A DNA stretch of 28,284 nucleotides from a virus: the IMG/VR virus record IMGVR_UViG_3300025097_000037, positions 1-28,284 of that record; one strand, written 5' to 3'. The translations under genes were made by a program, and so were the position numbers. Each line of letters starts with the position of its first letter. The stretch's first letter is position 1. The notes below the pieces were generated by a model. It was not told where the DNA came from. It ran no database searches and was given only the letters and a program-made list of their open reading frames with translations. Shown here piece by piece: positions 3,826 to 22,416 of the stretch.

Positions 3826-3833
3826 ATAAATAG
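3826..3833 (-). promoter_or_regulatory. CTATTTAT box, candidate late-promoter element
   Basis: Minus-strand ACTATTTATAATGAA lies in the 41-bp gap upstream of the structural gene at 3385-3795. The same ACTATTTAT occurs in the 68-bp gap at 27533-27540, before another structural gene. The reading overlaps a TATAAT but has no matching -35. It could be a phage-specific late element or simply AT-rich leader. Confidence 0.3.
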
Positions 3834-4480: not shown

Positions 4481-5590
4481 CTATCCTTTGATAATTCCTG
4501 CGAGTTTCTGCCAGTTTTCTAATAAGGCTTGATCTTTTGTGTCCAGACTCTCCCCTACCGCCGGCTGCGCTGTGGTGGACCATTGAGCAGAAGGCACGTT
4601 AGCCATGCTCATTTCCTCTTCGTCTCCGGATTGTCCTTGGGCGGCCGGTTGCTTGGGGGTGCACTTATCAACGGGGTTAGTTAGTTTGCTTATCGGCGCA
4701 GCGAACTCTTGGCCACGTTTGGGGTTGCAATCCGGATCTAGCGGGATTACCTGCGCATGCTGCGGGTGTTTCTGCAGCGGGTCTATGACCGTTACTACTG
4801 TCGGGTTGCCCTTCCCTGAAACATATTCATAGCTGTCGCCCTTTTTAACGGCTGTTCCGGGAGGGGGTGCCTCTGCACCACCTTCTTCCTCGCCAGGAAC
4901 CTCTTCTCCTGGCTGCGCGCCGGGCTGCTCTGCGGGCTCTTCTGCGGGCTGCTCAGCCGCCTGTTGCTGCTGTTGTGCGGGCTGCTCTTCGGGTTGTGTT
5001 TGAATATAGGCAGAGGCAAATTCTCTTACGTCACCAAAGCCAGCATTTTGAAAAATCGTTAAAACAGTTTTTTGGTACTCATCTGATTTAAGACCGGTTG
5101 CCACAAGCTTATAAAGATTAGGATATTTCTCCAGATCTTCCAGCTTCCCGATCTTAGGCTTGCGCTCGTGTTCCATTGCTCCGCGCTCTACTGCCTGCCG
5201 GCGCCGGAATGGATTCCGGATCTCTGACAAGTCAAGCTCTTTACCCTGATCCACAACTTTAATATTCTGGGCTCGTAAGAACTGTTGATATTCGCGCATA
5301 ATGGCAGCATCATCCAGTCTTCCCTGAAACAAATCCTGATTCAAATCTTGAAATCCTTTGACCGGCTCCATAAATTGGGATTGGTCAATGGGTTGCTCCG
5401 GCAATTCTTCTTTCTTTTCGCCTTGGGCGTCGGGGCACGGACACTCCTCGGTGCCGCCATCGGGCAGGCATTTCTGCTTGTCTTTAAAGCGAGCCTTTAC
5501 CATTCGGCTGCTCATCTCCTCGTTCAAATACTCGCGCCATGCATCAGTGTGTTGCTGGTTTTCCTTAAAGCTGCTCCATTGTTTACTCAT
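4481..5590 (-). CDS. Putative prohead core or structural protein with E/Q/P linker
   Basis: 369 residues. The N-terminus carries AWREYLNEE (residues 17-25), matching the WR-x-[FY] phrase at the start of the proteins beginning at 19309 and 7538. Residues 41-52 hold four cysteines with spacing CxxxxxxxxCxC. A mostly helical segment (70-195) precedes a low-complexity Glu/Gln/Pro linker (about 199-245). A compact beta-like domain follows (GDSYEYVSGKG to ISKLTNP, 251-307), and the end is ENWQKLAGIIKG. The start overlaps the protease stop by 8 nt, with GAGGT upstream. In T4 the scaffold gene 22 follows protease gene 21, so a core or scaffold role is plausible by position, but no sequence similarity to gp22 is obvious. 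Alternative: a cleaved internal head protein. Confidence 0.75.
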   Translation of the reverse strand: MSKQWSSFKENQQHTDAWREYLNEEMSSRMVKARFKDKQKCLPDGGTEECPCPDAQGEKKEELPEQPIDQSQFMEPVKGFQDLNQDLFQGRLDDAAIMREYQQFLRAQNIKVVDQGKELDLSEIRNPFRRRQAVERGAMEHERKPKIGKLEDLEKYPNLYKLVATGLKSDEYQKTVLTIFQNAGFGDVREFASAYIQTQPEEQPAQQQQQAAEQPAEEPAEQPGAQPGEEVPGEEEGGAEAPPPGTAVKKGDSYEYVSGKGNPTVVTVIDPLQKHPQHAQVIPLDPDCNPKRGQEFAAPISKLTNPVDKCTPKQPAAQGQSGDEEEMSMANVPSAQWSTTAQPAVGESLDTKDQALLENWQKLAGIIKG

Positions 5591-6248
5591 TGTCTAATAC
5601 CTCGTTAAGCAATCGATTAATACGATCTGCTTTGGTGAACACGTTAGGGGTGCTCAAATCCTTTGCTTCTTTCATCATATATGCGCCGGGGGTTGAAGGC
5701 TCCGACACAAAATCAAAACAAATAAGCTGGAAATCATCTTCCACGATAGTTTGCCCTTGAGCTTCGCTGACGGATCCCATTCCGCGTGAAGAGATGCCAA
5801 GCTGGGCACCACTATTAACTAGTCCTCTGAGAATGTTGCCGGAGGGAGTGTCGAGAACTTTTACTTTCCCCATCACATTTTTATTGTCCATCCACACATC
5901 GGTAACCATGTGAGAAGCATTCTTCAGATTAATAACTGAATCATCAGGGTGATCTAATTCTCCCAGGGCGCGCCGTTCTTTTACGAGCTTCTTATAATTT
6001 TGGACCTCGCGCGTTAAAACCTTAAAGGGATAGATGCGTCCGTTTCCATTTTGTACGTCAGCTTCCTGGAGCTTACCAGACAGCATCATACCGCCATTAG
6101 AAACGAATCGCTTCTCTTCTTCGGTTAACAAATCTTGACATACGCCGCCTTCGCACAGGGCATAATATTCTCGTAATAAAACTTTAGCCATAGTTAAGAA
6201 CCTTTGCAGCAGTTTCTTACTGGCTGCAGCATCCATTTTCGTGTCCAT
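5583..6248 (-). CDS. Prohead maturation protease, T4 gp21 type
   Basis: 221 residues from the ATG at 6248. Family hallmarks are visible: LSGKLQEADVQNGNGRIYP (57-74), LGELDHPDD with the candidate catalytic His100, and GISSRGMGSV with the candidate catalytic Ser153/154. The His-Ser spacing of about 54 is close to that of T4 gp21 (His85, Ser140). The gp21-type enzyme sits inside the prohead and cuts scaffold, shell and internal proteins after [LI]-x-E before DNA packaging. The upstream ATGs (M1, M5) have almost no ribosome site; an ATG at 6191 (MAKVLLREYYALCEGG, 202 residues) has AAAGG 9 nt upstream and may be the true start. Its likely substrates include the tagged proteins elsewhere in this cluster. 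Confidence 0.9.
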   Translation of the reverse strand: MDTKMDAAASKKLLQRFLTMAKVLLREYYALCEGGVCQDLLTEEEKRFVSNGGMMLSGKLQEADVQNGNGRIYPFKVLTREVQNYKKLVKERRALGELDHPDDSVINLKNASHMVTDVWMDNKNVMGKVKVLDTPSGNILRGLVNSGAQLGISSRGMGSVSEAQGQTIVEDDFQLICFDFVSEPSTPGAYMMKEAKDLSTPNVFTKADRINRLLNEVLDNE

Positions 6249-8087: not shown

Positions 8088-8904
8088 CAGTATAGATCTC
8101 CTTTACTAAGCTTTGAGTTTTCATTACAGTGAGCAACAGTTCGTCATCTATTGAGCGCTTTGAGAATTCCTTTAGACGCGCAATGATCTCTTCTGTTTTG
8201 GCCAACATATCCGGATCATTTTTAATTTCTGGGCTAGCCTTAGCCTCGGTTAGGCATGCCTTGAGGCGGACGATTTCTTCATTCAGGAATACTTTAAGCT
8301 CTAAGGCATTGTCTGTAAAAGAAGAGATATAATAAATGAGGAGTTCTTTCTGTTCCTCTAAGAGGTTCGTGTCATACTTATGATTAAACTTTTCGGTAAA
8401 TGTTCTCACCACCACACTATCAATCTCTTCGCTGCGAGATGTTTCTATTGGGGCGTTGGTCATGTTTTTAATAATCTCGCCTTCTAATATAACTTGATCC
8501 TTGGGGGATGTTTTATCCGAGAAGATTCGTGCGATAGACGCAAGAGATTTATAGTTCGGAACAAAGTTATTAAATACAGAAGGCTCCAGTTCCTTGTTAA
8601 CATCATGAATCAAAACGCTCTGCTCTTTAAACAAACCTTCGGAATCAATTAGCCGACTGGCCAATTTTGCTTCTCTAAGGATTTTCTCCGAAGTCTCTTT
8701 GTCCAAGTTCTGGTTTTCATACAGGGACCGGTGGCATTCTAAATCTCGTCGAAGCAATGAGTCTTCTTTAAAGTGCCTCTTAATAAGCTTCACGGCCGTC
8801 TTCTGTCTTTTAAGATCTTTTTTCAAAATTGCAACAGTGGCTTCTCTAATCAAAGCTTCATATACAAAAGCGCTGTTTCTCTTTTTATTGTGTCTACTCT
8901 TCAT
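8071..8904 (-). CDS. Conserved helical protein following the portal
   Basis: 277 residues from the ATG at 8904, starting MKSRHNKKRNSAFVYEALIR. This start is chosen over an in-frame site at 8970 because GGAG lies 7 nt upstream and the overlap with the portal stop is only 11 nt. The protein is highly charged and predicted almost all alpha-helical (VAILKKDLKRQKTAVKLIKRHF, ELKVFLNEEIVRLKACLTEA), with a very basic first 15 residues. There is no zinc, ATPase or membrane motif. Tight coupling to the portal suggests a prohead or portal-associated role. T4 has small prohead core genes (67, 68) between 20 and 21, and this may fill that slot, but it is much larger and I see no direct similarity. Confidence 0.8.
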   Translation of the reverse strand: MKSRHNKKRNSAFVYEALIREATVAILKKDLKRQKTAVKLIKRHFKEDSLLRRDLECHRSLYENQNLDKETSEKILREAKLASRLIDSEGLFKEQSVLIHDVNKELEPSVFNNFVPNYKSLASIARIFSDKTSPKDQVILEGEIIKNMTNAPIETSRSEEIDSVVVRTFTEKFNHKYDTNLLEEQKELLIYYISSFTDNALELKVFLNEEIVRLKACLTEAKASPEIKNDPDMLAKTEEIIARLKEFSKRSIDDELLLTVMKTQSLVKEIYTDGSRS

Positions 8905-10909
8905 CCTGTGGCTCCGTTGTGGGGGTTGTATTACTTTCAAGTCCCATAATAAGATCTCGAATGGATTCATTTATCTGAAACAATTGTGTTTCTTCTTTCT
9001 GCTCTCCTGTTTTATAAGTAGGCTCTTCCCTTTCATAAATACCTGTTGCGGCACCACCCATTTTTGCTAAGGATTGTAAGTCGCCCATTCCGGGGACTAT
9101 ATTGCGTAATGTACTGCTGCCTTTTTCGCGGCTATACTTAGCTGCATTTGAGCGCATTCTGGCGCCGGCCACACGGCGATCTCCACCGGGGTTTTTCCGA
9201 GAACCCTTGGGGTGATATACTTTTCCCTTAGCACCGGGGGTGAGTCGGGGTTCATTACGGGAACCGGGCGGTACTGCCAAAAGGGTTTCTTCCTCTCCTC
9301 CTGCTTCTGCACCACCTAACTCTTCTCCGCCGGCGTCACCAGCGGGCATCTCTTCTCCTCCAAGATCACCGCCTAGATCACCACCAAGGTCGCCGCCTAG
9401 ATCGCCACCAAGGTCGGCGCCCATTCCACCGCCTCCTGCGCCGGCTGCTGCAGCAGCTTCCGCAACTTGTTGAAGGGCTGCGTCATGTTTGCGGTCATAA
9501 TACATTTCTCGCTGGTTGCGCGCAAATTCTTCATGAGACATCCCAAAGATGTTCTCGGTAACCCATCGTCGAGAGAAGAAGCCTTCTGTGGCTGCGCCGG
9601 CAATATCAAACTTACTCTTCCAGAATTCAATCTCTTGAAGTTCCGCAATCCGAGAAGGATTATTGAGCGTTAAGGTAAAGCTTAATAGATCGTCGCCTCT
9701 GAAGCCTAGGGTGTAGAGGTGAATAATTCCAATCTTTGTGAGTTCCGCAATGATGACTCGCTGCAATCTCTGAATGGTTCGGGCAAATCGGATATCCTTT
9801 TGTGCCAGGGTGCTCTTGTCTTCTTCTGCTCCCTCTCCCATTGTCAGATAAGACTGCGGGATTTTAAGAGCCGAGAAAAGCTTATCACGTAAATACTTGA
9901 TATCATCAATCGCTGTAATATTTGATGCGCCGGCCAATGAAACGATATCGGTCGCAGACCCAGCCCGAATAGGAATAAAGTAATCTTCTTCAATGGACAT
10001 GGGATTATAGCGCAAGTCAACGCGGCCGGTTGCAGGATCAATAACCTGATGGCGCTTAAGGTTTGTCACCACCTTTTCCATATATTGTTCCACTTCGTTT
10101 GGAGGCACGGCGCCTACATCAATCTTAAACACGCGGCGTTCAGATGAGCGGATAACTCGGTATGCCATCATGGCATCTTCCATCAACGTTAGCTGGCGCC
10201 AGATGCGACGAGAGGCTTCCAAAATTGAAGTACCATACGGAGCATACTTATCATTTCCTAAGACCCGGAAATGAGCAATCTGCCAGTTCTCGAAAGTCAT
10301 ACCAGCAGAGTTCCACTGGTATTGAATGTAGTTGGGGTTAGTGGAGTCCTGTCCTTCTAGGCGCTCAACTTCCTGTGACGGGAGAGCAATGACGGATTGG
10401 ACTCCGTATTTATCATCAATGTCCAAGTAAAGAAAAAAGTCTCCATACTTGCACATGGTGCGGGCCCAACCAAAAAGGTTATACTTGAGATTCAAAATAC
10501 TATCAAAGAGAACATTAAGGACTGCCGCGATTTCTTCGTTCGGGCACTTAACATTTAACATCGGACGCAACTCCGAATAGGTCGTCATTTCATCTGCATA
10601 GATATCTAACGTGGATGCAATCTCCGGCATGTATTCCATTTGATCAAAATCTACATAACGCTCTGAGCGTCGTTGATTAGAGATAGCGTTGACAGCAATA
10701 TTATCAAGAGGGCTATAAAGAGTTTTCTTAAACTGTTGTCCCGAGGCGGACTTAAAGCGTGAAGAAAATCGATCCAGATGTTGACGTCGGATGCGTCGAC
10801 CGGACTGCGAGCGATAACTAACAATAGGACCCGAAAAGAGCCTTGTTAATGCTTTAAATAATCCTGACTGACTATTCGCGGGGTTGTTTTTGGGAGGGGT
10901 ACGTGCCAT
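8894..10909 (-). CDS. Portal protein, T4 gp20 type
   Basis: 671 residues. The core has gp20-type phrases: SSERRVFKIDVGAVPPNEVEQYM, MSIEEDYFIPIRAGSATDI, DDIKYLRDKLFSALKIPQSYL and STLAQKDIRFARTIQRLQ. The portal forms the dodecameric ring at one capsid vertex, nucleates prohead assembly and is the docking site for the terminase. The N-terminus is basic (SYRSQSGRRIRRQHLDRFSSRF). The C-terminal tail is unusual: a DLGG repeat array followed by an acidic Gly/Glu stretch, then a basic GAKGKVYHPKGSRKNPGGDRR segment. It starts 8 nt after the terminase stop, giving the classic terminase-portal order. Confidence 0.94.
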   Translation of the reverse strand: MARTPPKNNPANSQSGLFKALTRLFSGPIVSYRSQSGRRIRRQHLDRFSSRFKSASGQQFKKTLYSPLDNIAVNAISNQRRSERYVDFDQMEYMPEIASTLDIYADEMTTYSELRPMLNVKCPNEEIAAVLNVLFDSILNLKYNLFGWARTMCKYGDFFLYLDIDDKYGVQSVIALPSQEVERLEGQDSTNPNYIQYQWNSAGMTFENWQIAHFRVLGNDKYAPYGTSILEASRRIWRQLTLMEDAMMAYRVIRSSERRVFKIDVGAVPPNEVEQYMEKVVTNLKRHQVIDPATGRVDLRYNPMSIEEDYFIPIRAGSATDIVSLAGASNITAIDDIKYLRDKLFSALKIPQSYLTMGEGAEEDKSTLAQKDIRFARTIQRLQRVIIAELTKIGIIHLYTLGFRGDDLLSFTLTLNNPSRIAELQEIEFWKSKFDIAGAATEGFFSRRWVTENIFGMSHEEFARNQREMYYDRKHDAALQQVAEAAAAAGAGGGGMGADLGGDLGGDLGGDLGGDLGGEEMPAGDAGGEELGGAEAGGEEETLLAVPPGSRNEPRLTPGAKGKVYHPKGSRKNPGGDRRVAGARMRSNAAKYSREKGSSTLRNIVPGMGDLQSLAKMGGAATGIYEREEPTYKTGEQKEETQLFQINESIRDLIMGLESNTTPTTEPQDEE
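9363..9422. repeat. 12-bp tandem repeat encoding DLGG array in portal C-terminus
   Basis: Five consecutive 12-bp units (+ strand AGATCACCGCCT, AGATCACCACCA, AGGTCGCCGCCT, AGATCGCCACCA, AGGTCGGCGCCC) keep the reading frame and encode (DLGG)n. Units alternate in a 24-bp higher-order pattern. The copy number could change by slippage without a frameshift. Confidence 0.85.
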
Positions 10910-10917
10910 TTAGTTTC

Positions 10918-12504
10918 TCACTTAATAATCCATTTGTATTGTTCGTAAAGTTGTTGTGCGTCTGTCATCTTAGCATCCAACGCGTTGTCTTTTTCATAGC
11001 CATGCTGGCCAGACACTCGGGTATTCATCGTTGTCCTACTTGTAATAATTGCATCGACAAATGCTCGTTGATAATTTAAATCGCGGGCGCTGGCTTGGAT
11101 AGCAGTATCGCGCACCCAACATGCAATAGCTAAGGCCATGATTAAATCATCATTATATCCTTTCATTGCTTGGGGCTTACCGTTTTTCCAAATAAAAGTT
11201 TTCATTTCATTAACTGTCCGAGATGAGTACACTTTAATTAGTTTATTTCTTATAAACTCTTCCAATTTTGCAACTATTAGTGGTCGTGTCTTCATTGTGG
11301 TTGAAAACCCGGGGACCGCTGACGTATGAGCTTCTGCTTGGTATTGTTCGATATATTCATGTGTAGACTTTACTGAATAATATAAGTTAGGATAACCGTA
11401 TTCTATGAGTTTGTCAAGTACTGTATAGCCAATATTATTATTTTCTACTACTAACATGGCATTTCCAAACTCTCGACCAACTTGATTTAACATATTAGCA
11501 AATAAATCTGGCGTGATCTTTCCTTGATATTCTCCAATGATTTCAAGTGTTTCTAGTTTTAGTATATGAAAGGCAGAAAAATCGGCGCCATCTCCACGAG
11601 ACACATCGACTACCAATAAATAATTACAGGTAGGATCAAACTCTTCCCAAATCCAAAAGTTACGATCAAAGCCAGTGCGATGCTTTGGTTCTTTAATAGT
11701 AGAGAATAACCACTCCATACAATCTGGATCTATAACTGTCTCCCCCGAAGTATTGAAATTGCACTCAAGTTCCTGCGCAATTTGGCGCCGGGACATATTT
11801 TTAGTTTCTTTCTGATACCATACTTCGTCTCGATCAGGGTGCACCTGCCAGGGGAGTGTAGTAAGATTAAAGTTGTTGGAGGCAGCCTCAGCATCTACAC
11901 AGGTTTTATGAAACCAGTTTCCTACCCCGTTGGGGGTTGACAAGGCAATACACCGTCCACCTGTGGATAGTGTAGGATACAGACCAGTCCATAGTTCTTC
12001 TAGTCCTTCGATGTGAGCGGCCTCATCTAATACCAAAAGCGACAAGGCTTCCGAACGACCGGCATCGCCAGAAGTGGAAGCTGCTTTAATGGACGAACCG
12101 TTAGACAGTTCAAAAGAAGTGCGGTTGTCTACGCTAATGGTGGCAATCTTTAGCCATGCCGGTACGTTGCGCATGATGCCTTTAACTTTCTTTACAAGGT
12201 TACCCGCTGTGGCAAACTTAGTGGCCATTACAAGAATGGCTTTGTCTCGATGAAAAAGCATCATCCAGACAACATAGCCGGCAGTAACAGTAGAAATACC
12301 CAACTGCCGAGCTTTTAAAATCACATTAAAGCGATAATCGTTAAAGCTATTGAGTAGCTCATCTTGAAAATCGTATGTATCAAACAGAATTAGACCATGC
12401 ATCGGATGAGAGATGCGCGCATAGGTCTTCAGAAAGTAAGAAGGGTCTTTACCGCACTTTAAGATCTCGCCGACTTGCTGTTTTTTGTCTAGTTGAAAGC
12501 TCAT
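10918..12504 (-). CDS. Terminase large subunit, T4 gp17 type
   Basis: 528 residues with both halves of a packaging motor. The ATPase half shows a variant Walker A (KARQLGIST, 64-72), Walker B with catalytic Glu (LLVLDEAA, 156-163) and a coupling motif (LSTPNG, 188-193). The RNase H-fold nuclease half shows LVVDVSRGDGADFSAF (Asp300), LVVENNNIG (Glu354) and NDDLIMALAI (Asp452/453). It translocates and cuts concatemeric phage DNA at the portal. Its start overlaps the preceding gene's stop as ATGA. No gp16-type small subunit is obvious; the three small genes just upstream occupy that position. Confidence 0.95.
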   Translation of the reverse strand: MSFQLDKKQQVGEILKCGKDPSYFLKTYARISHPMHGLILFDTYDFQDELLNSFNDYRFNVILKARQLGISTVTAGYVVWMMLFHRDKAILVMATKFATAGNLVKKVKGIMRNVPAWLKIATISVDNRTSFELSNGSSIKAASTSGDAGRSEALSLLVLDEAAHIEGLEELWTGLYPTLSTGGRCIALSTPNGVGNWFHKTCVDAEAASNNFNLTTLPWQVHPDRDEVWYQKETKNMSRRQIAQELECNFNTSGETVIDPDCMEWLFSTIKEPKHRTGFDRNFWIWEEFDPTCNYLLVVDVSRGDGADFSAFHILKLETLEIIGEYQGKITPDLFANMLNQVGREFGNAMLVVENNNIGYTVLDKLIEYGYPNLYYSVKSTHEYIEQYQAEAHTSAVPGFSTTMKTRPLIVAKLEEFIRNKLIKVYSSRTVNEMKTFIWKNGKPQAMKGYNDDLIMALAIACWVRDTAIQASARDLNYQRAFVDAIITSRTTMNTRVSGQHGYEKDNALDAKMTDAQQLYEQYKWIIK

Positions 12505-13692: not shown

Positions 13693-14068
13693 TATTTGGT
13701 CTCCAACCTTTTTCCCATCTTTCCTCTCTGCCTTCCACATATTGAATGTAACAGTTGTAGCAACATTCATATTTTAGAAAGCAAACGTCGTCTGCTGTTT
13801 TTTTCATGGAAGAAGAACACACCATACAACGTTGTAAAGAATCTCTATTAAATAGTTTCTTTGATACCTTTATACCATTTACATCTATTTTCTCTTCCCA
13901 CTTCTTGTGTTCGCTGTTTTTCTTATAAAGCTCTCGCATTTGATCGAGGTATTCTTTTTCTTTGTCCTCGTCCCAATTTGCACGAGGATTTTGAATAGCC
14001 TCGTCTCCATATTTCTTGGCAATCGCTTGTTCAATTGCTGCAATTTTATTGAGATCTTTATTCTTCAT
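13673..14068 (-). CDS. Small zinc-finger-like protein
   Basis: 131 residues from the ATG at 14068, which overlaps the upstream stop by 11 nt; a longer in-frame start at 14122 lies deep in the upstream gene. The N-terminus (MKNKDLNKIAAIEQAIAKKY) is helical and only weakly tag-like. The C-terminal part has a treble of cysteine pairs: CMVC (81-84) and CCYNC (102-106), followed by IQYVEGREERWEKGWRP. Two CxxC pairs about 18 apart suggest one structural zinc site. It could bind nucleic acid or protein; no specific family is recognised. It sits between lysis-like and tagged genes in the same transcription unit. Confidence 0.75.
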   Translation of the reverse strand: MKNKDLNKIAAIEQAIAKKYGDEAIQNPRANWDEDKEKEYLDQMRELYKKNSEHKKWEEKIDVNGIKVSKKLFNRDSLQRCMVCSSSMKKTADDVCFLKYECCYNCYIQYVEGREERWEKGWRPNNENNQK

Positions 14069-14480
14069 TGAACAATCTATAGGATCCATATGTTGCGGCG
14101 ACACCAACTGCGACACCTCCAACGGCCCACATCCAATTATTGCGGGGAGATTGCTTTAATAAGGATCTTTGAAGATGATCAATCTCTTCATCTTTCTGGA
14201 AAATGAGAAGACTCATTTCTTCGTGCAATGCATTATATTGAATCTCCCAATTGCGAAGCTCTAACTCATAGCTTGCAGCTTCAACTGAAAGCTCATATTC
14301 AATTCGTGCTTGGCATGCGAGGTTGGCCGTTGATTGGCGCGCCAAGATTTCAGACAATGCCGGAACATCGAATAGCACACCTTCAAAGGGTGCGCACTGT
14401 TGGTGTCCGAGAAAGGTGAACTGACCTGCGTCGGCTGCTTGAGCAGGGCTGCCCAACGTTAATAATAGACTAAGGAACAT
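14058..14480 (-). CDS. Exported coiled-coil protein with C-terminal membrane helix
   Basis: 140 residues from the ATG at 14480; an in-frame TTG at 14486 would add two. A short signal peptide (MFLSLLLTLGSPAQA) with an Ala-x-Ala site is followed by a Cys-containing segment (QQCAPFEGVLFDVPALSEIL), a long heptad-like helix (ELSVEAASYELELRNWEIQYNALHEEM) and a terminal membrane helix (WMWAVGGVAVGVAATYGSYRLF). The likely topology is a periplasmic coiled coil anchored by its C-terminus. It overlaps the spanin-like gene upstream by 11 nt. Membrane-anchored periplasmic coiled coils suit the last step of lysis, so it may partner that protein; unproven. Confidence 0.72.
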   Translation of the reverse strand: MFLSLLLTLGSPAQAADAGQFTFLGHQQCAPFEGVLFDVPALSEILARQSTANLACQARIEYELSVEAASYELELRNWEIQYNALHEEMSLLIFQKDEEIDHLQRSLLKQSPRNNWMWAVGGVAVGVAATYGSYRLFNEE

Positions 14481-14856
14481 AATCAAATCCGTACATAAAC
14501 ATTATTGTCTCAGATAGTTCCTCTGGGTCTTCAGAGAATTGTCTTCCGAATTCTTCTCTGCGACTCTCGATCACTTCTAGTAACTCATCCTGGCTCTCTT
14601 GATAATCCCGCTCTACTTGATCTAAGGTATCCTTATAGACCTGGAGTGAGTTCTCCATGTCTGCCATCTGCTTCTTGTGGATCTCTTGCAAGCCTGCTAG
14701 TTGCGCCTGCAATGATTGTTCTGAAGCCTCGTATGCAGCCTGCATCTGTTTGTAGTCGAAACGCATTTTGCCCACCACTACAAGCGAAAGAAGGGCGATT
14801 AAAACACCCTTCCAGTTCTTCACTAAAAATTGTATTACTAACTGCCGGGGTGTCAC
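14470..14856 (-). CDS. Candidate i-spanin (Rz-like)
   Basis: 128 residues beginning at a GTG (14856) that overlaps the upstream TGA as GTGA, with AAGGG 6 nt upstream. The N-terminal anchor (WKGVLIALLSLVVVGKM, about 15-31) is followed by a long uninterrupted charged coiled coil (QMQAAYEASEQSLQAQLAGL to QESQDELLEVIESRREEFG). This type II topology with a periplasmic coiled coil is the i-spanin (Rz) plan, in which the protein links inner to outer membrane and fuses them at the end of lysis. It directly follows a holin-like gene. No embedded Rz1 frame is evident; the proline-rich lipoprotein at 16095-16280 could be the outer partner. Alternative: a tail or membrane structural coiled coil. Confidence 0.65.
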   Translation of the reverse strand: MTPRQLVIQFLVKNWKGVLIALLSLVVVGKMRFDYKQMQAAYEASEQSLQAQLAGLQEIHKKQMADMENSLQVYKDTLDQVERDYQESQDELLEVIESRREEFGRQFSEDPEELSETIMFMYGFDYVP

Positions 14857-15047
14857 TTGTTTCCCTTGAATCTCTCAACGATGTCAACTGCCCCTTGGGT
14901 GCCGATAAAGACTGTGCTAATAACCACCCAGTCGCCGCTGGTTAAATACCCGGCAAATGCTAAGGCTGACGCAGTTATCCATACTAATAACTTACGTGAC
15001 GTTAGCTTTAATAACCACGTATCTAAAAATCCTTTGTGCTCGGCCAT
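14853..15047 (-). CDS. Candidate holin, two membrane helices
   Basis: 64 residues. A short charged N-terminus (MAEHKGFLDTWLLKLTSRK) leads into hydrophobic helix 1 (LLVWITASALAFAGYLT), a GDW turn and helix 2 (VVISTVFIGTQGAVDIV), ending ERFKGNK. Two short membrane helices with charged ends fit small phage holins, which form the inner-membrane hole that starts lysis. It is followed by a spanin-like gene, which supports a lysis role. The start forms TAATG with the upstream stop, and GGAG lies 6 nt before it. No endolysin lies in this window, so the cassette is incomplete here or dispersed. Confidence 0.62.
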   Translation of the reverse strand: MAEHKGFLDTWLLKLTSRKLLVWITASALAFAGYLTSGDWVVISTVFIGTQGAVDIVERFKGNK

Positions 15048-17251: not shown

Positions 17252-18379
17252 TTATTTTCCTTTGGGTAACCCATTCATACATAGTATGGCCACAAGTCCA
17301 GGTACGTTATCATTAATATAAACGCCTGAAAAAAGTGTTTCTGTTCTGCCGCCAACATATCCAATCGCCGCATCCATGTGCTTGCTAATCTCTGGATCGT
17401 TTGCCATCTCTGACGACGCGATCAATAATAGTGCGCCTGTCTTAGGCTTTCCTGTGGGGGCGGGACACGGCGAGCGCTTCATACAATTCTGGAGAACCAT
17501 TGCTCCAAGATTGGGCGTGGCGGGATCCTTAACCATGGTCGATCCAATAAACATTCGTTGTGGTGTTTTCAAGCATCTTTCCAAATCCTTCGTGTCAAAT
17601 GACTGAATTGGAGATTTATCCGAAGACAGCTTTAAGACTTGGGTCCACAGCTTTGCGAATGCCGTGTTCGAGGTGGGGAACAAATTAAGCATTCCTACCT
17701 TGCCTCGCAACAGTTTTACTTGTCGCTCGTTATCAATAATAACGTGCGTGTGTGTCGCGACATCATTTATAAGCGTGTTAGCGTTCTTGCTAATGGTGGG
17801 GTTTAATGTTTCTTGGGCCGTAGGCCATGAGACTATATATACCACTTCGCCTTCAGCCTGCACTGACTTGAGATAACGCTCAAAGACAGTGTGTAAAGAG
17901 GCGACGGCAGAACCTGTTCCACCGCCGCCCCCAGCGCAAACGAACAGCCAGTCTACTTTGCCTAATTTTGTGCGGAGGGCATCTTCTACGACTGTACTGT
18001 TTGCATCAAACACAGCTTTTCCTAAATTCACATCTTTTCCAATACCATCGGCATCGGGAATCAAAACCACATGCTTATCATCCACATCGTTAGGAATATC
18101 TTTAGAAGTGGTATTGACAAGCAAAGTCCTATTGTAACCAAGATCGAGAAAGGCTTTGGCCATTTTGCCACCACCTCCACCTACGCCAACAACGGCGCAG
18201 TTCAGCGATGCGGGAATCGTGTTCTCCGGAAGCAAGTTCTCGTGTGTTACTTCTTCATCGTCTCCATAATGATCGATAAAATCAAAATCGTCAGTTGTGG
18301 TAGTTGTGGGGGTGTCGAGAGCAGGCGGGTTTACTTCGCTAGCTGTCTCGGCAAAATCAAAATCATCAGGGTTGTTCAT
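17252..18379 (-). CDS. Tubulin/FtsZ-family GTPase
   Basis: 375 residues. The GTPase domain begins near 60 with a T1 loop (AVVGVGGGGGK, 62-72). The tubulin signature follows (CAGGGGGTGSAVAS, 148-161), matching the FtsZ GGGTGTG box. A T7-type loop (SFDTKDLERCL, 260-270) has Asp262 and Asp265 aligning with the catalytic Asp pair of FtsZ (NVDFADV). The family polymerises into GTP-dependent filaments; phage members such as PhuZ and TubZ position or segregate phage DNA. An acidic 55-residue N-terminal extension carries DDFDF twice (5-9, 30-34) around a Thr/Pro linker. No FtsZ-like C-terminal peptide is visible; it ends MNGLPKGK. GGAG lies 6 nt before the ATG. The upstream neighbour has a ParB-like domain. 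Confidence 0.88.
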   Translation of the reverse strand: MNNPDDFDFAETASEVNPPALDTPTTTTTDDFDFIDHYGDDEEVTHENLLPENTIPASLNCAVVGVGGGGGKMAKAFLDLGYNRTLLVNTTSKDIPNDVDDKHVVLIPDADGIGKDVNLGKAVFDANSTVVEDALRTKLGKVDWLFVCAGGGGGTGSAVASLHTVFERYLKSVQAEGEVVYIVSWPTAQETLNPTISKNANTLINDVATHTHVIIDNERQVKLLRGKVGMLNLFPTSNTAFAKLWTQVLKLSSDKSPIQSFDTKDLERCLKTPQRMFIGSTMVKDPATPNLGAMVLQNCMKRSPCPAPTGKPKTGALLLIASSEMANDPEISKHMDAAIGYVGGRTETLFSGVYINDNVPGLVAILCMNGLPKGK

Positions 18380-18394
18380 ATAAATCTCCGTTTA

Positions 18395-19309
18395 TTATTC
18401 TGCAGCTTTTCTCTTTTTCTGTGGGCGCGCACCATACGCGTCGGCCGGTTTAGGACTATCAAAGTTAATTTCACCTGTACCGAGCGCTTGGTTGACAGCA
18501 TCCTGTGAAACTCCCGAATCTCCAGCTTGTGGCATACTTTTCTCGCGAGAGAACCTGCCGGCGGATTGTTTAATGACAGGTAAATTACCAGCGATATAGT
18601 CAGCCGCCTGCTGCTTATCGGGCTTCATAATTTTTTGGGCTTGGACCAGAAGTTGTAAAACTTCGTCAGTAACATTTTTGAGAACAAAGTCCTTAACTTG
18701 TTGCTCATTTGCCTGCATTAGATTTTCACCCTCAAATGGCTTTGTCACCACTTTATCAGCAGTTGCAGCAATTGCGAATTGCATAACTTTAAGCGCTTCT
18801 TCTTCGTTATCTATAGCAGGTCCAGTTAGGTTATCAATTTTAACGGCGCCATCTGGATTAACCATCATAATTTGTGACCACCGATGATGTCCGTCTAAGA
18901 TGTGTGTTCCATTGTATACTAGAATTGGAACTGGGCCAGACTTTGAAGCCATAACAATTGGAGTTCCATTTAGTCCGAGAGCGGTTTTAGTGGAATCGTA
19001 TTTATTAGCAACCTGATCAGCTAAACTGTTTCCAAAACCAATTTCTGCTTGTGTGGCTGTTAGATCTTTTGCGGCTACAGTAGCCGGCGCAACCTTAGCC
19101 ACTTCATCATCTGGCCGGCCATCGTCTTCTCCCGCTGCAGCAATCTTATCAAATTCCGGGTCTGCGGCATATTTCTTAAGTACGGCAACATATGTAGCCA
19201 AGGGAGTTCCAGGGTTATTTAAGACATAGAGGGCACCTTTATCAAGTTCTTGAAGATTGCCTTCTGATTCATTAACGAACTTGCGCCAACTTTCCATTAA
19301 GAGTTTCAT
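18395..19309 (-). CDS. ParB-like-domain protein with capsid-tag-like N-terminus
   Basis: 304 residues from the ATG at 19309, which shares its A with the upstream TAA (TAATG). A longer in-frame start at 19369 lies within the fused nuclease gene. It begins MKLLMESWRKFVNESEGN; FVNE-S resembles the FIAE-A cut site of T4 internal proteins. Around residues 126-145 the phrase PVPILVYNGTHILDGHHRWS matches the ParB/Srx-fold box (DGHHR). A charged C-terminal tail (PADAYGARPQKKRKAAE) is likely disordered. The ParB-like fold may bind or cut nucleic acid or act as a nucleotide switch. It lies directly before the tubulin-like gene. Being a packaged protein is a rival or additional explanation. Confidence 0.75.
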   Translation of the reverse strand: MKLLMESWRKFVNESEGNLQELDKGALYVLNNPGTPLATYVAVLKKYAADPEFDKIAAAGEDDGRPDDEVAKVAPATVAAKDLTATQAEIGFGNSLADQVANKYDSTKTALGLNGTPIVMASKSGPVPILVYNGTHILDGHHRWSQIMMVNPDGAVKIDNLTGPAIDNEEEALKVMQFAIAATADKVVTKPFEGENLMQANEQQVKDFVLKNVTDEVLQLLVQAQKIMKPDKQQAADYIAGNLPVIKQSAGRFSREKSMPQAGDSGVSQDAVNQALGTGEINFDSPKPADAYGARPQKKRKAAE

Positions 19310-22300
19310 TATTGGTTTACCTTCGCGTAGCCTTTTTTCTTTTCTATTACAATCTGCATATCGACGCAATCTTTGAGAGAGTCCAAATGCGATATCAAGA
19401 GAACGTTCTTAAAATATACTTTAATTAGTTCCAAGATCCGAATAAAACCCTCCATATTTTCCTCGTCCAATGCTGTTCCTGGTTCATCAAGAATGAACAA
19501 GTCAGACTTTGGAAGCGACGAAACACTCAAAAGCGCTAACCGAATGGCCATGGCGCCCATTGTCTTTTCTGCGCCTGACGCCATTTCAATGGGTCTTTCG
19601 TCGTGTTTGGGGTGTTTAATAAAGATATCTAGTTTGTTGCCGCCAGTTTCAAAGAACACTTCGAACTCAACAATGTTGGCGAGAACTTTTGCAATCTCTT
19701 GATTAATCACTGGAATCTTTTTCTTAATAATGTCGTAAGCGATCCCATTGGGGTGCATGCATTGCATGAGCATATCATATGCAGCATAGTCATTCTGTAG
19801 ATCTTTATACTCTTGGTGTTGCTGTTTCAAAGACGCAACCTTTTCTTCGTAGGAACCAATCTGCTTTACAAGCTCTAGAGTTTCTTCGTCGCATGCATGG
19901 ATTTTATCCTTTTTGGTCTCGATCTTATTCTCGTAAGTCTTGCGCTCGTTAATGAGCTTTTCTAAACCATCAATAACCTTTTTATTTTGGTTGTATTCTT
20001 TGACCTTTATTTTTGTCTGGGACATTTCTAGCTCGGTGGTTGCTTTCGTGTTCTTGTTGCGCTCGCACTCCAACAATAACTCTGCCACTTCGGTCTTAAG
20101 CTCTTGAATCAATTCTTGCATTAAGCGATATTCTTCAAGCTTTTCGCCAGTCTCTGTTGGATCTAACTTCTGTAGACGAGCCATCGCGGTTTGAAGATCT
20201 TCTTCAATCCCAGGTTTATTGGCCACATCTATATAAGCATCTTTAATGAAGTGGCATGAGGGAAATTGATCACCGCATGGAATACTCTTTAAAAGCTTTT
20301 CTTTCTTGCTAATGTTTCCGAGTTCTTCACGGAGATTAGCAATGCTATGATCAAGAATTTCGATCTCAGCTTTATCCTCGGTTAAGGTAGCAATATTTAT
20401 AAGATCTAAAAATCCTTCAGATATAATAATTTTTTGCTGCTTAAGATCAATATCGGTTTCTTGGGTTGCAATCTTTTCGGCTAGCATCTTAGAAAGATTT
20501 TCGTTCTCTTTTTGTGCTGATAGAATTTTAGTAATATCAATAAGTTTGCCTGGGATTAAGTTAATCTTATCATCTAGGCGCCTGGAGCCCTCGCTTAAAA
20601 TTTTAAGCTCTTGGCGATATTTCTCGCACGTAGTTTTATTAATATCTGCTTCTACATGTAGCCCTTCCAAGCTTAATTCGAGATCTGTTAATTCTGTGTT
20701 ATAGTCGCGTCCTTCGTATTTCTTTAGGAGCGCTTTTGCTTCTACCGAATCATCTTTAGCCATCTTGAATTTCTGTTCAAATAATTCCAAATCCAGGAAC
20801 TTGGCGATGATTTCCTTGCGACGGGTCGAGCCCTCATCAATAAAGCCCAATGCACCGTGCTGGCTTGCCAGTGAAGACACCAGAAAATCATCCATGGAGC
20901 CGAAGTGCTTTCGAATATTTGCGTCGGTCTGATTGCGAGTGGTGCCATTTAGGGAGGTAGTTGTGTCTGAAACAGGATCATAAACTTCAAAATTCAAATC
21001 TGTTTTAGCTTCTAAAGTTTCAACCCCTTTTAGACGCTTGGTATATTTCTCTGAAACTCTCTCGATTGTATAGGTCATGTGACCGATCTCAATCTCTAGA
21101 GTGCCCTTGCACGAATCTTGATGTTGGTTAATAACGTTAAGGTTTTTGCGCTCGTTCTTGCTGGTGGTATTAAACAATGTATAGAGGGCCGCGTCAACAA
21201 TACTAGACTTGCCTGAAAAGTTCTTTCCGAAGACCCCAACAATTCCATTAAGCTTTTCAAAATTAATCGAGTTGTCTTGTCCATAATTAAACAAGTTATC
21301 AAATTTAAATGATTTAATTTTCCAATTTACATTTCTAGAGATCTCTTCTCGATCTTCAATAATCTTATTGTACTTGCTATTAAGTTCAAATACTCTTTCC
21401 AAAGTGGCAACGTCTGATTGATAGTCGGATAGAAATTCATCAATTAATTCTTCTTGAACCTTAATGTCTCGAAGGTTTTCGGTCTTAATGCCGTCTGTAA
21501 GATCTTCAACGTTGCCGCGGATTCCTTCGGCCCGGTTAAGGAAAACAATGCTTTCTGGTTTAAACCGGTGCTTCGCAATATCCATTGCTCGGCGCATTGT
21601 GTTAAGCGGAAGGTTATTAACACTTACCAGCCGCAAACGTGCGCCTTTGGGTACTTGGATTTTGCGCGGCATGCGGCCTTTTAAAGTAAGAGGTATAGTA
21701 AAGAATGGCTTGGGGTTCTTAAACACAAGAGGTTCGATCTCCCATTTATCTTTTGAGTCAATCTCCCAAATGAGAATCCCCTTGTCGTTAGTTTCGCCGT
21801 GATTCTGTTGAACAGTTGAGCCACAATACCAAATGCGCCCATCATGATCTAAGAACTGACGTCGATGGATATCACCAAGCATGGCAAAGTCAAACTCGTC
21901 AAAGATAGAAATGTCGTCTTCGCCGAAGCTCATCGTCCAATTTGTGTCAGTCTTGCAATTGTTAATGGAACCATGATACAAAGCAATATTAACTTTGGAG
22001 CTTTTGGTCGGAGCCATCCAATTGTCACGATCAAAAACAGACAAGACATTCAAACAGAAATCGTCGTTTAAATGAGTCTCGCCTGAATTCTTGAGCAAGT
22101 GTAATGTTGGCATGTCAAGCGCATCGACAATCGGTGTCAGTGCGTCTTGGCGACTGCTGTTCTTTAGGTTACCATCATGGTTTCCTAGAATGATATAGGT
22201 TGGTGCAATCTCAGCGAGACTGCGAAAAAAATCAGAACACATCTCAACAAACTCTGGTGAGATCTGTGTCTTGGTGTGGGCAATATCCCCACAGTGTATA

Positions 22301-22416
22301 ATGTAATCGACCTTTTGTTCTCGCAGTGTTTCATACAACTGCTCAAAAATGACTCGATATTCATAATGATACTTCAAATTTTTGATATGAGTATCACTTA
22401 TATGTGCAAACTTCAC
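19309..22416 (-). CDS. SbcD-SbcC (T4 gp47-gp46) fusion, Mre11/Rad50-type nuclease-ATPase
   Basis: 1035 residues from a GTG start with GGAGG 4 nt upstream. Residues 1-345 are an Mre11-type phosphoesterase: SDTH (7-10), CGDIAH (42-47), GNHDG (78-82), YHGS (147-150), GDIHRR (181-186). Residues 365 to the end are Rad50-like: Walker A FGKNFSGKSS (396-405), long coiled coils, signature MASGAEKT (945-952), Walker B LFILDEPG (973-980) and H-loop His1010. In T4 and bacteria these are separate proteins that process DNA ends for recombination-dependent replication. The hook cysteines are CGDQFPSC (714-721), C-x6-C instead of CxxC. There is no stop or frameshift between halves, so this is a true fusion. 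A strong promoter lies just upstream. Confidence 0.93.
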   Translation of the reverse strand: MKFAHISDTHIKNLKYHYEYRVIFEQLYETLREQKVDYIIHCGDIAHTKTQISPEFVEMCSDFFRSLAEIAPTYIILGNHDGNLKNSSRQDALTPIVDALDMPTLHLLKNSGETHLNDDFCLNVLSVFDRDNWMAPTKSSKVNIALYHGSINNCKTDTNWTMSFGEDDISIFDEFDFAMLGDIHRRQFLDHDGRIWYCGSTVQQNHGETNDKGILIWEIDSKDKWEIEPLVFKNPKPFFTIPLTLKGRMPRKIQVPKGARLRLVSVNNLPLNTMRRAMDIAKHRFKPESIVFLNRAEGIRGNVEDLTDGIKTENLRDIKVQEELIDEFLSDYQSDVATLERVFELNSKYNKIIEDREEISRNVNWKIKSFKFDNLFNYGQDNSINFEKLNGIVGVFGKNFSGKSSIVDAALYTLFNTTSKNERKNLNVINQHQDSCKGTLEIEIGHMTYTIERVSEKYTKRLKGVETLEAKTDLNFEVYDPVSDTTTSLNGTTRNQTDANIRKHFGSMDDFLVSSLASQHGALGFIDEGSTRRKEIIAKFLDLELFEQKFKMAKDDSVEAKALLKKYEGRDYNTELTDLELSLEGLHVEADINKTTCEKYRQELKILSEGSRRLDDKINLIPGKLIDITKILSAQKENENLSKMLAEKIATQETDIDLKQQKIIISEGFLDLINIATLTEDKAEIEILDHSIANLREELGNISKKEKLLKSIPCGDQFPSCHFIKDAYIDVANKPGIEEDLQTAMARLQKLDPTETGEKLEEYRLMQELIQELKTEVAELLLECERNKNTKATTELEMSQTKIKVKEYNQNKKVIDGLEKLINERKTYENKIETKKDKIHACDEETLELVKQIGSYEEKVASLKQQHQEYKDLQNDYAAYDMLMQCMHPNGIAYDIIKKKIPVINQEIAKVLANIVEFEVFFETGGNKLDIFIKHPKHDERPIEMASGAEKTMGAMAIRLALLSVSSLPKSDLFILDEPGTALDEENMEGFIRILELIKVYFKNVLLISHLDSLKDCVDMQIVIEKKKGYAKVNQ

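Follow-up and report, generated by a model that had tools for sequence, protein, structure and literature searches.

The window analyzed here, a stretch of 28,284 nucleotides from the IMG/VR virus record IMGVR_UViG_3300025097_000037, carries a tubulin-like gene among genes of a T4-type phage. On a single strand, a fused SbcCD gene is followed by the tubulin gene, a cassette encoding holin-like, Rz-like, and secreted coiled-coil proteins, and then the terminase and portal genes:

19309..22416 (-): fused SbcD-SbcC (gp47-gp46-like), upstream of the tubulin gene; phrog_100 and phrog_77 in one 1035-aa chain
17252..18379 (-): phage FtsZ/tubulin-like GTPase, 375 aa; Pfam Tubulin above the cut-off, AlphaFold2 pLDDT 86.9, best folds FtsZ, CetZ, and TubZ
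14853..15047 (-): 64-aa membrane protein, holin-like (weak match to phrog_4237 holin, E = 0.02); in clades A and E, a neighbor of the tubulin gene
14470..14856 (-): 128-aa Rz/i-spanin-like protein with an N-terminal membrane segment and a coiled coil (phrog_1152 Rz-like spanin, E = 0.0013)
14058..14486 (-): 142-aa protein with a signal-peptide-like start, a coiled coil, and a C-terminal membrane segment; topology judged from its sequence
10918..12504 (-): T4-type terminase large subunit, gp17-like (phrog_2, E = 1.5e-53)
8894..10909 (-): T4-type portal, gp20-like (PF07230, E = 2.3e-75)
5583..6248 (-): prohead protease, gp21-like (PF03420, E = 1e-30)

This order, together with the gene orders in relatives, agrees with the initial annotation, which had put the gene beside head and lysis genes; the T4-type setting, which it had regarded as unusual for a tubulin, is evident from the gp20-like portal and the gp17-like terminase. 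The SbcD-SbcC fusion, composed of T4 gp47 and gp46 parts, is kept in about 25 related loci. The upstream neighbor of the tubulin gene (18395-19369, -) encodes a protein with a DGHHRW motif that recalls ParB/sulfiredoxin (Srx)-like proteins; this product has no Pfam match, and its gene is not a constant neighbor of the tubulin gene. No family match was found for the 142-aa protein.

GTPase loops and fold of the tubulin-like protein

The tubulin-like ORF starts with an ATG codon preceded by GGAG, a good ribosome-binding site. Its product matches the Pfam Tubulin profile (PF00091) with 36.2 bits (E = 9.6e-9; cut-off, 33) and contains the following loops:

18170..18190 (-): T1 glycine loop GVGGGGG, residues 64-70
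17912..17938 (-): T4 loop (tubulin signature) AGGGGGTGS, residues 148-156; GGGTGS invariant in 53 sequences
17582..17602 (-): T7 loop FDTKDLE, residues 260-266; D261 and D264 invariant, aligned to FtsZ D209 and D212

Along with these T4 and T7 positions, the 53 aligned relatives share invariant T1 glycines 64, 66, and 67, the Asn of T2, the Asp-Gly of T3, the Pro and Gln-Glu of T5, and the Asn-Glu of T6. AlphaFold2 models of the window protein and of a short relative (pLDDT of 86.9 and 92.8, respectively) both have the two-domain tubulin/FtsZ fold, which in the former is confidently predicted and includes the central helix. In Foldseek searches, FtsZ, CetZ, and TubZ come out on top in the PDB for both models, with E values of about 1e-20. 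Among viral models, the best match comes from an uncultured Caudovirales phage and is FtsZ-like (BFVD A0A6J5RW92; TMq of 0.74, only 16% identity), with PhuZ proteins ranked well below.

With a Pfam score above the cut-off, the predicted fold, and the invariant loop residues, the product of this ORF is a tubulin-superfamily GTPase with intact GTPase loops, as had been proposed from the letters of the sequence; the GVGGGGG, AGGGGGTGS, and SFDTKDLE motifs all lie where they had been placed. The comparison of profiles and structures, chosen beforehand as the test on which that assignment was to stand or fall, leaves the protein inside the superfamily. Intact T7 aspartates are what is expected of self-activating filaments. 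The gene of these T4-type marine phages is best explained as encoding a GTP-binding member of the FtsZ/tubulin family that probably forms filaments.

Placement among FtsZ, CetZ, PhuZ, and TubZ

Profile comparisons with hhalign gave an E value of 1e-11 over 265 columns for FtsZ versus 2e-7 over 126 columns for PhuZ. The NCBIfam FtsZ profile matches with an E value of 1.9e-9, and the FtsZ equivalog cut-off is not reached (TIGR00065, 37.3 bits versus the 295.2 needed). Among solved structures, the best full-length sequence match is 3zid, the CetZ of Methanosaeta thermophila (profile E = 1.2e-10), which is also the top fold match of the short-relative model. The nearest viral family by profile is phrog_17961 (unknown function; E = 3.5e-5), and the match to the PhuZ profile, phrog_4733, is very weak (E = 0.0039 over 99 residues). 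In a tree that included FtsZ, PhuZ, and one CetZ, 31 phage sequences formed a single group on a long branch (support of 92, not starred) outside the PhuZ clade; branches in this tree are long, the lone CetZ sequence sits on a long branch of its own, and TubZ sequences were left out. Because the profiles favor FtsZ and CetZ over PhuZ, the FtsZ equivalog cut-off is missed, and the phage sequences form their own group in the tree, we assign them to a separate phage family of the tubulin superfamily that is neither PhuZ, TubZ, nor FtsZ and is, by profile, nearer to FtsZ/CetZ than to PhuZ.

The new family shares with FtsZ the T-loop pattern and the T7 DxxD motif, and these proteins, along with CetZ, give its best sequence profile matches. 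However, identity to FtsZ is about 20%, and the new family is phage encoded and has no C-terminal linker and no FtsA/ZipA-type peptide. CetZ is an archaeal cell protein with 18 to 19% identity to the phage proteins, which, in the tree with its single CetZ sequence, appear to form a deep separate branch. Like PhuZ of phiKZ, 201phi2-1, and other chimalliviruses, the new protein is a tubulin-family GTPase encoded by large phages, but its genomes are T4-type, with no detectable chimallin or phage RNA polymerase, and its gene lies among late genes. Membership in PhuZ was rejected on the profile E value of 0.004, the position outside the PhuZ clade, the lack of an acidic C-terminal knuckle tail, and the lack of chimallin and phage RNA polymerase in 12 long, possibly incomplete relative contigs. 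The likeness of fold to TubZ of Bacillus plasmids is as close as that to FtsZ (TM of 0.75 to 0.78), but no TubR/tubC surroundings were found for the phage family. Membership in TubZ was likewise rejected, in view of the lack of iterons at four inspected loci, of partition-type neighbors, and of a C-terminal tail; this exclusion is based on profile, neighborhood, and tail, not on the tree. PhuZ and TubZ, with which the initial annotation had compared it, do not include this protein, and the comparison with them describes its likely way of working instead.

The proximity to FtsZ by profile also fits a host-directed role, in which an FtsZ mimic would coassemble with or titrate host FtsZ or its partners. 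Late in infection, division would then be blocked or redirected, keeping the cell large or letting it lyse at a chosen site. The lysis genes that adjoin the tubulin gene in two clades agree with such a role, but the low identity to FtsZ, a score far under the equivalog cut-off, the absence of an FtsZ-type C-terminal peptide, and the retention of a complete catalytic set, superfluous in a decoy that merely titrates, make it unlikely.

The acidic N-terminal peptide

Ahead of the glycine loop, the window protein has 16 acidic and no basic residues, and this extension includes two copies of a short motif:

18353..18367 (-): distal copy DDFDF, residues 5-9; lineage specific, from the alignment of relatives
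18266..18292 (-): proximal N-terminal peptide DDFDFIDHY, residues 30-38; motif shared throughout the family

The proximal motif, with the consensus (D/E)FDF(V/I)DHY and the wider form (D/E)(F/L)(D/G)(F/M)(V/I/L)(D/E)x(Y/F), is present 23 to 25 residues ahead of the glycine loop in 66 of the 67 tails located, compared with 0.015 expected in shuffled tails; these 67 are the tails for which the core was found, the simple pattern having missed the core in 12 of 79 sequences. In the shortest members, the motif is the very N terminus of the protein (MSEFDFVDHY). A blind scan of IMG/VR with degenerate DNA for DFDF(V/I)DHY matched 40 stretches; of the 33 newly fetched ones that were read, 32 continue into a tubulin core, and the remaining one, truncated at a contig end, is otherwise alike. 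The tails are acidic throughout the family (median net charge, -11). Only the clade of the window and an L019-like clade have the distal copy, which in the latter reads EFDFLPPAE. Both copies and the acidity of the extension, as first described, were found, but only the proximal copy is universal. Since the distal copy is lineage specific, it is the proximal copy that matters and not the duplication, and the pattern of conservation indicates that the acidic extension is under constraint.

On the C-terminal side, only 8 to 14 residues follow the last core motif, and none of the tails examined is of the TubZ/PhuZ kind, with its acidic knuckle in PhuZ, or ends in an FtsZ-type C-terminal peptide. 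In PhuZ, the acidic peptide is at the C terminus and is critical for polymerization (PMC3678025), whereas in the new family it is at the N terminus. PhuZ and TubZ rely on their C-terminal tails for contacts between subunits and for binding partners (PMC3678025, PMC5322520); the TubZ tail recruits partners (PMC5322520), and the new family has no such tail. By analogy, the DFDF(V/I)DHY peptide might touch the adjoining subunit or bind a partner. In the model of the short form, residues 7-17 are the sole segment with a pLDDT below 50, so that the linker is predicted to be loose; the slightly better placement of the peptide hints weakly at docking.

Gene position, occurrence, and possible functions

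At least six local positions of the tubulin gene were seen, most of them in the midst of late head, packaging, and lysis genes, and they follow the clades: between SbcCD, lysis, and terminase genes; between portal and protease; between core and scaffold; between major capsid and neck, a position reached twice, by two unrelated clades; inside an Rz cassette; and downstream of a gp55-like sigma factor. This late sigma is weakly recognized (phrog_234, E = 0.013) and directly precedes the tubulin gene in five loci (L115, L117, L118, L120, and L123). A late family is found within 6 kb of the gene in 40 of 47 loci versus about 25% of two long genomes, and a strict virion family is found in 29 of 47 versus 14 to 18%; the 47 loci are those with enough flank, they are related and not independent, and the wider list of late families was derived from the neighbors themselves, so that these figures indicate a trend, not probabilities. 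No late family was recognized nearby in the other 7 loci, and in some contigs the gene is remote from the portal (72 kb in G004 and about 80 kb in G058).

Gene order makes it plausible that, as initially suggested, the gene is cotranscribed with the lysis and head genes late in infection. A consensus T4 late promoter was not seen upstream of the tubulin gene. The T4 late promoter TATAAATA occurs at 6 upstream sites in G001, versus 2.9 expected, and at none in G004. A different element, ACTATTTAT, precedes several structural genes in G001 (e.g., at 125716, 132956, 139516, and 142536) and is found in the window at 3827 and 27534 (-); ACTATTTA occurs in 20 upstream regions of G001 versus 1.1 expected. 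Although ACTATTTAT may be the late promoter of these phages, none is found directly before the tubulin gene.

Relatives of the protein are encoded by 365 stretches in IMG/VR, on contigs of up to 203 to 235 kb. The T4 portal profile matched all 10 tested relative contigs longer than 100 kb. Neither chimallin nor a phiKZ-type multisubunit RNA polymerase was detected in 12 long relative contigs, which are possibly incomplete; both were detected in the phiKZ control. Among 50,697 phage records and 72,556 plasmid records, none matched the protein, and the gene is absent from Flavobacterium phage immuto and Microcystis phage Mel-JY01, the nearest cultured relatives by terminase. A search of a collection of open-access papers found no report of a tubulin in T4-type phages.

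In chimalliviruses, PhuZ filaments carry capsids (PMC12908238, PMC13282480), and a review raises the possibility that, in the late stages of infection, large virions depend on transport of this kind (PMC7950403). We tentatively favor the reading that the protein is a late GTP-driven filament that works without a phage nucleus in positioning or moving phage heads or packaging DNA, with the N-terminal peptide as a polymerization or docking element. A dynamic filament made with the late genes is suggested because the GTPase loops are intact, T7 is conserved, and a nucleus appears to be absent; head or DNA positioning or transport is favored because of the PhuZ precedent and the suggested need of large virions. 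The GTPase would be made together with the late gene products and assemble into dynamic filaments, which might place or carry heads or packaging DNA, doing in part the job of PhuZ. With slightly more reserve, we consider it possible that the separate family as a whole provides T4-type phages with a late, nucleus-free cytoskeleton for moving heads or packaging DNA, in which an N-terminal DFDF peptide replaces the C-terminal tail of known phage tubulins.

Descriptions of phage tubulins concern jumbo phages that form a nucleus and phages that are plasmid-like. In a survey of 224 jumbo phages, tubulin was linked with a phage multisubunit RNA polymerase (PMC7824862). The present proteins would be a third kind, widespread in uncultured T4-type marine phages with no detectable chimallin; if so, a phage cytoskeleton needs no nucleus, which raises the question of what use a tubulin is to an ordinary large virus. 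The conserved N-terminal peptide offers a precise site for mutation.

The positions at the portal and protease, the core and scaffold, or the major capsid and neck in several clades are also what would be seen if the protein were a virion component or a factor that, depending on GTP, scaffolds or places proheads as they assemble at the membrane. However, in other clades the gene is outside the head block, and T4-type relatives in culture that share these head genes have no tubulin, so that such a role in morphogenesis appears quite unlikely. A cytoskeletal element that clusters or times the holin and spanin via the adjacent secreted coiled-coil protein would account for clade E, where the tubulin gene lies between the Rz-like and secreted-protein genes and its end overlaps the start of the latter, and for clade A, which carries the same trio downstream of the tubulin gene; this link to lysis is very unlikely, given that it is missing in the head-operon clades and the holin and spanin assignments are weak. 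Finally, a TubZ-like partition system of a plasmid-like phage state, for which the closeness of the TubZ fold could be cited, is hardly credible for a gene found among virion genes of T4-type phages, with no plasmid relatives, no iteron array in any of four inspected loci, and no TubR-like conserved neighbor in the loci of relatives.

Two further observations concern relatives of this phage. The metagenome-assembled genome labeled Flavobacteriaceae NAT231 includes a contig (L041) whose terminase is 84% identical and, on another contig, a tubulin fragment; this membership may be a hint at the host or a binning error. The 203-kb G001 contig encodes a tmRNA (L049:10469-10890; Rfam RF00023, 112.5 bits), for which ARAGORN gives the tag ANNNNNFESVRLAA.
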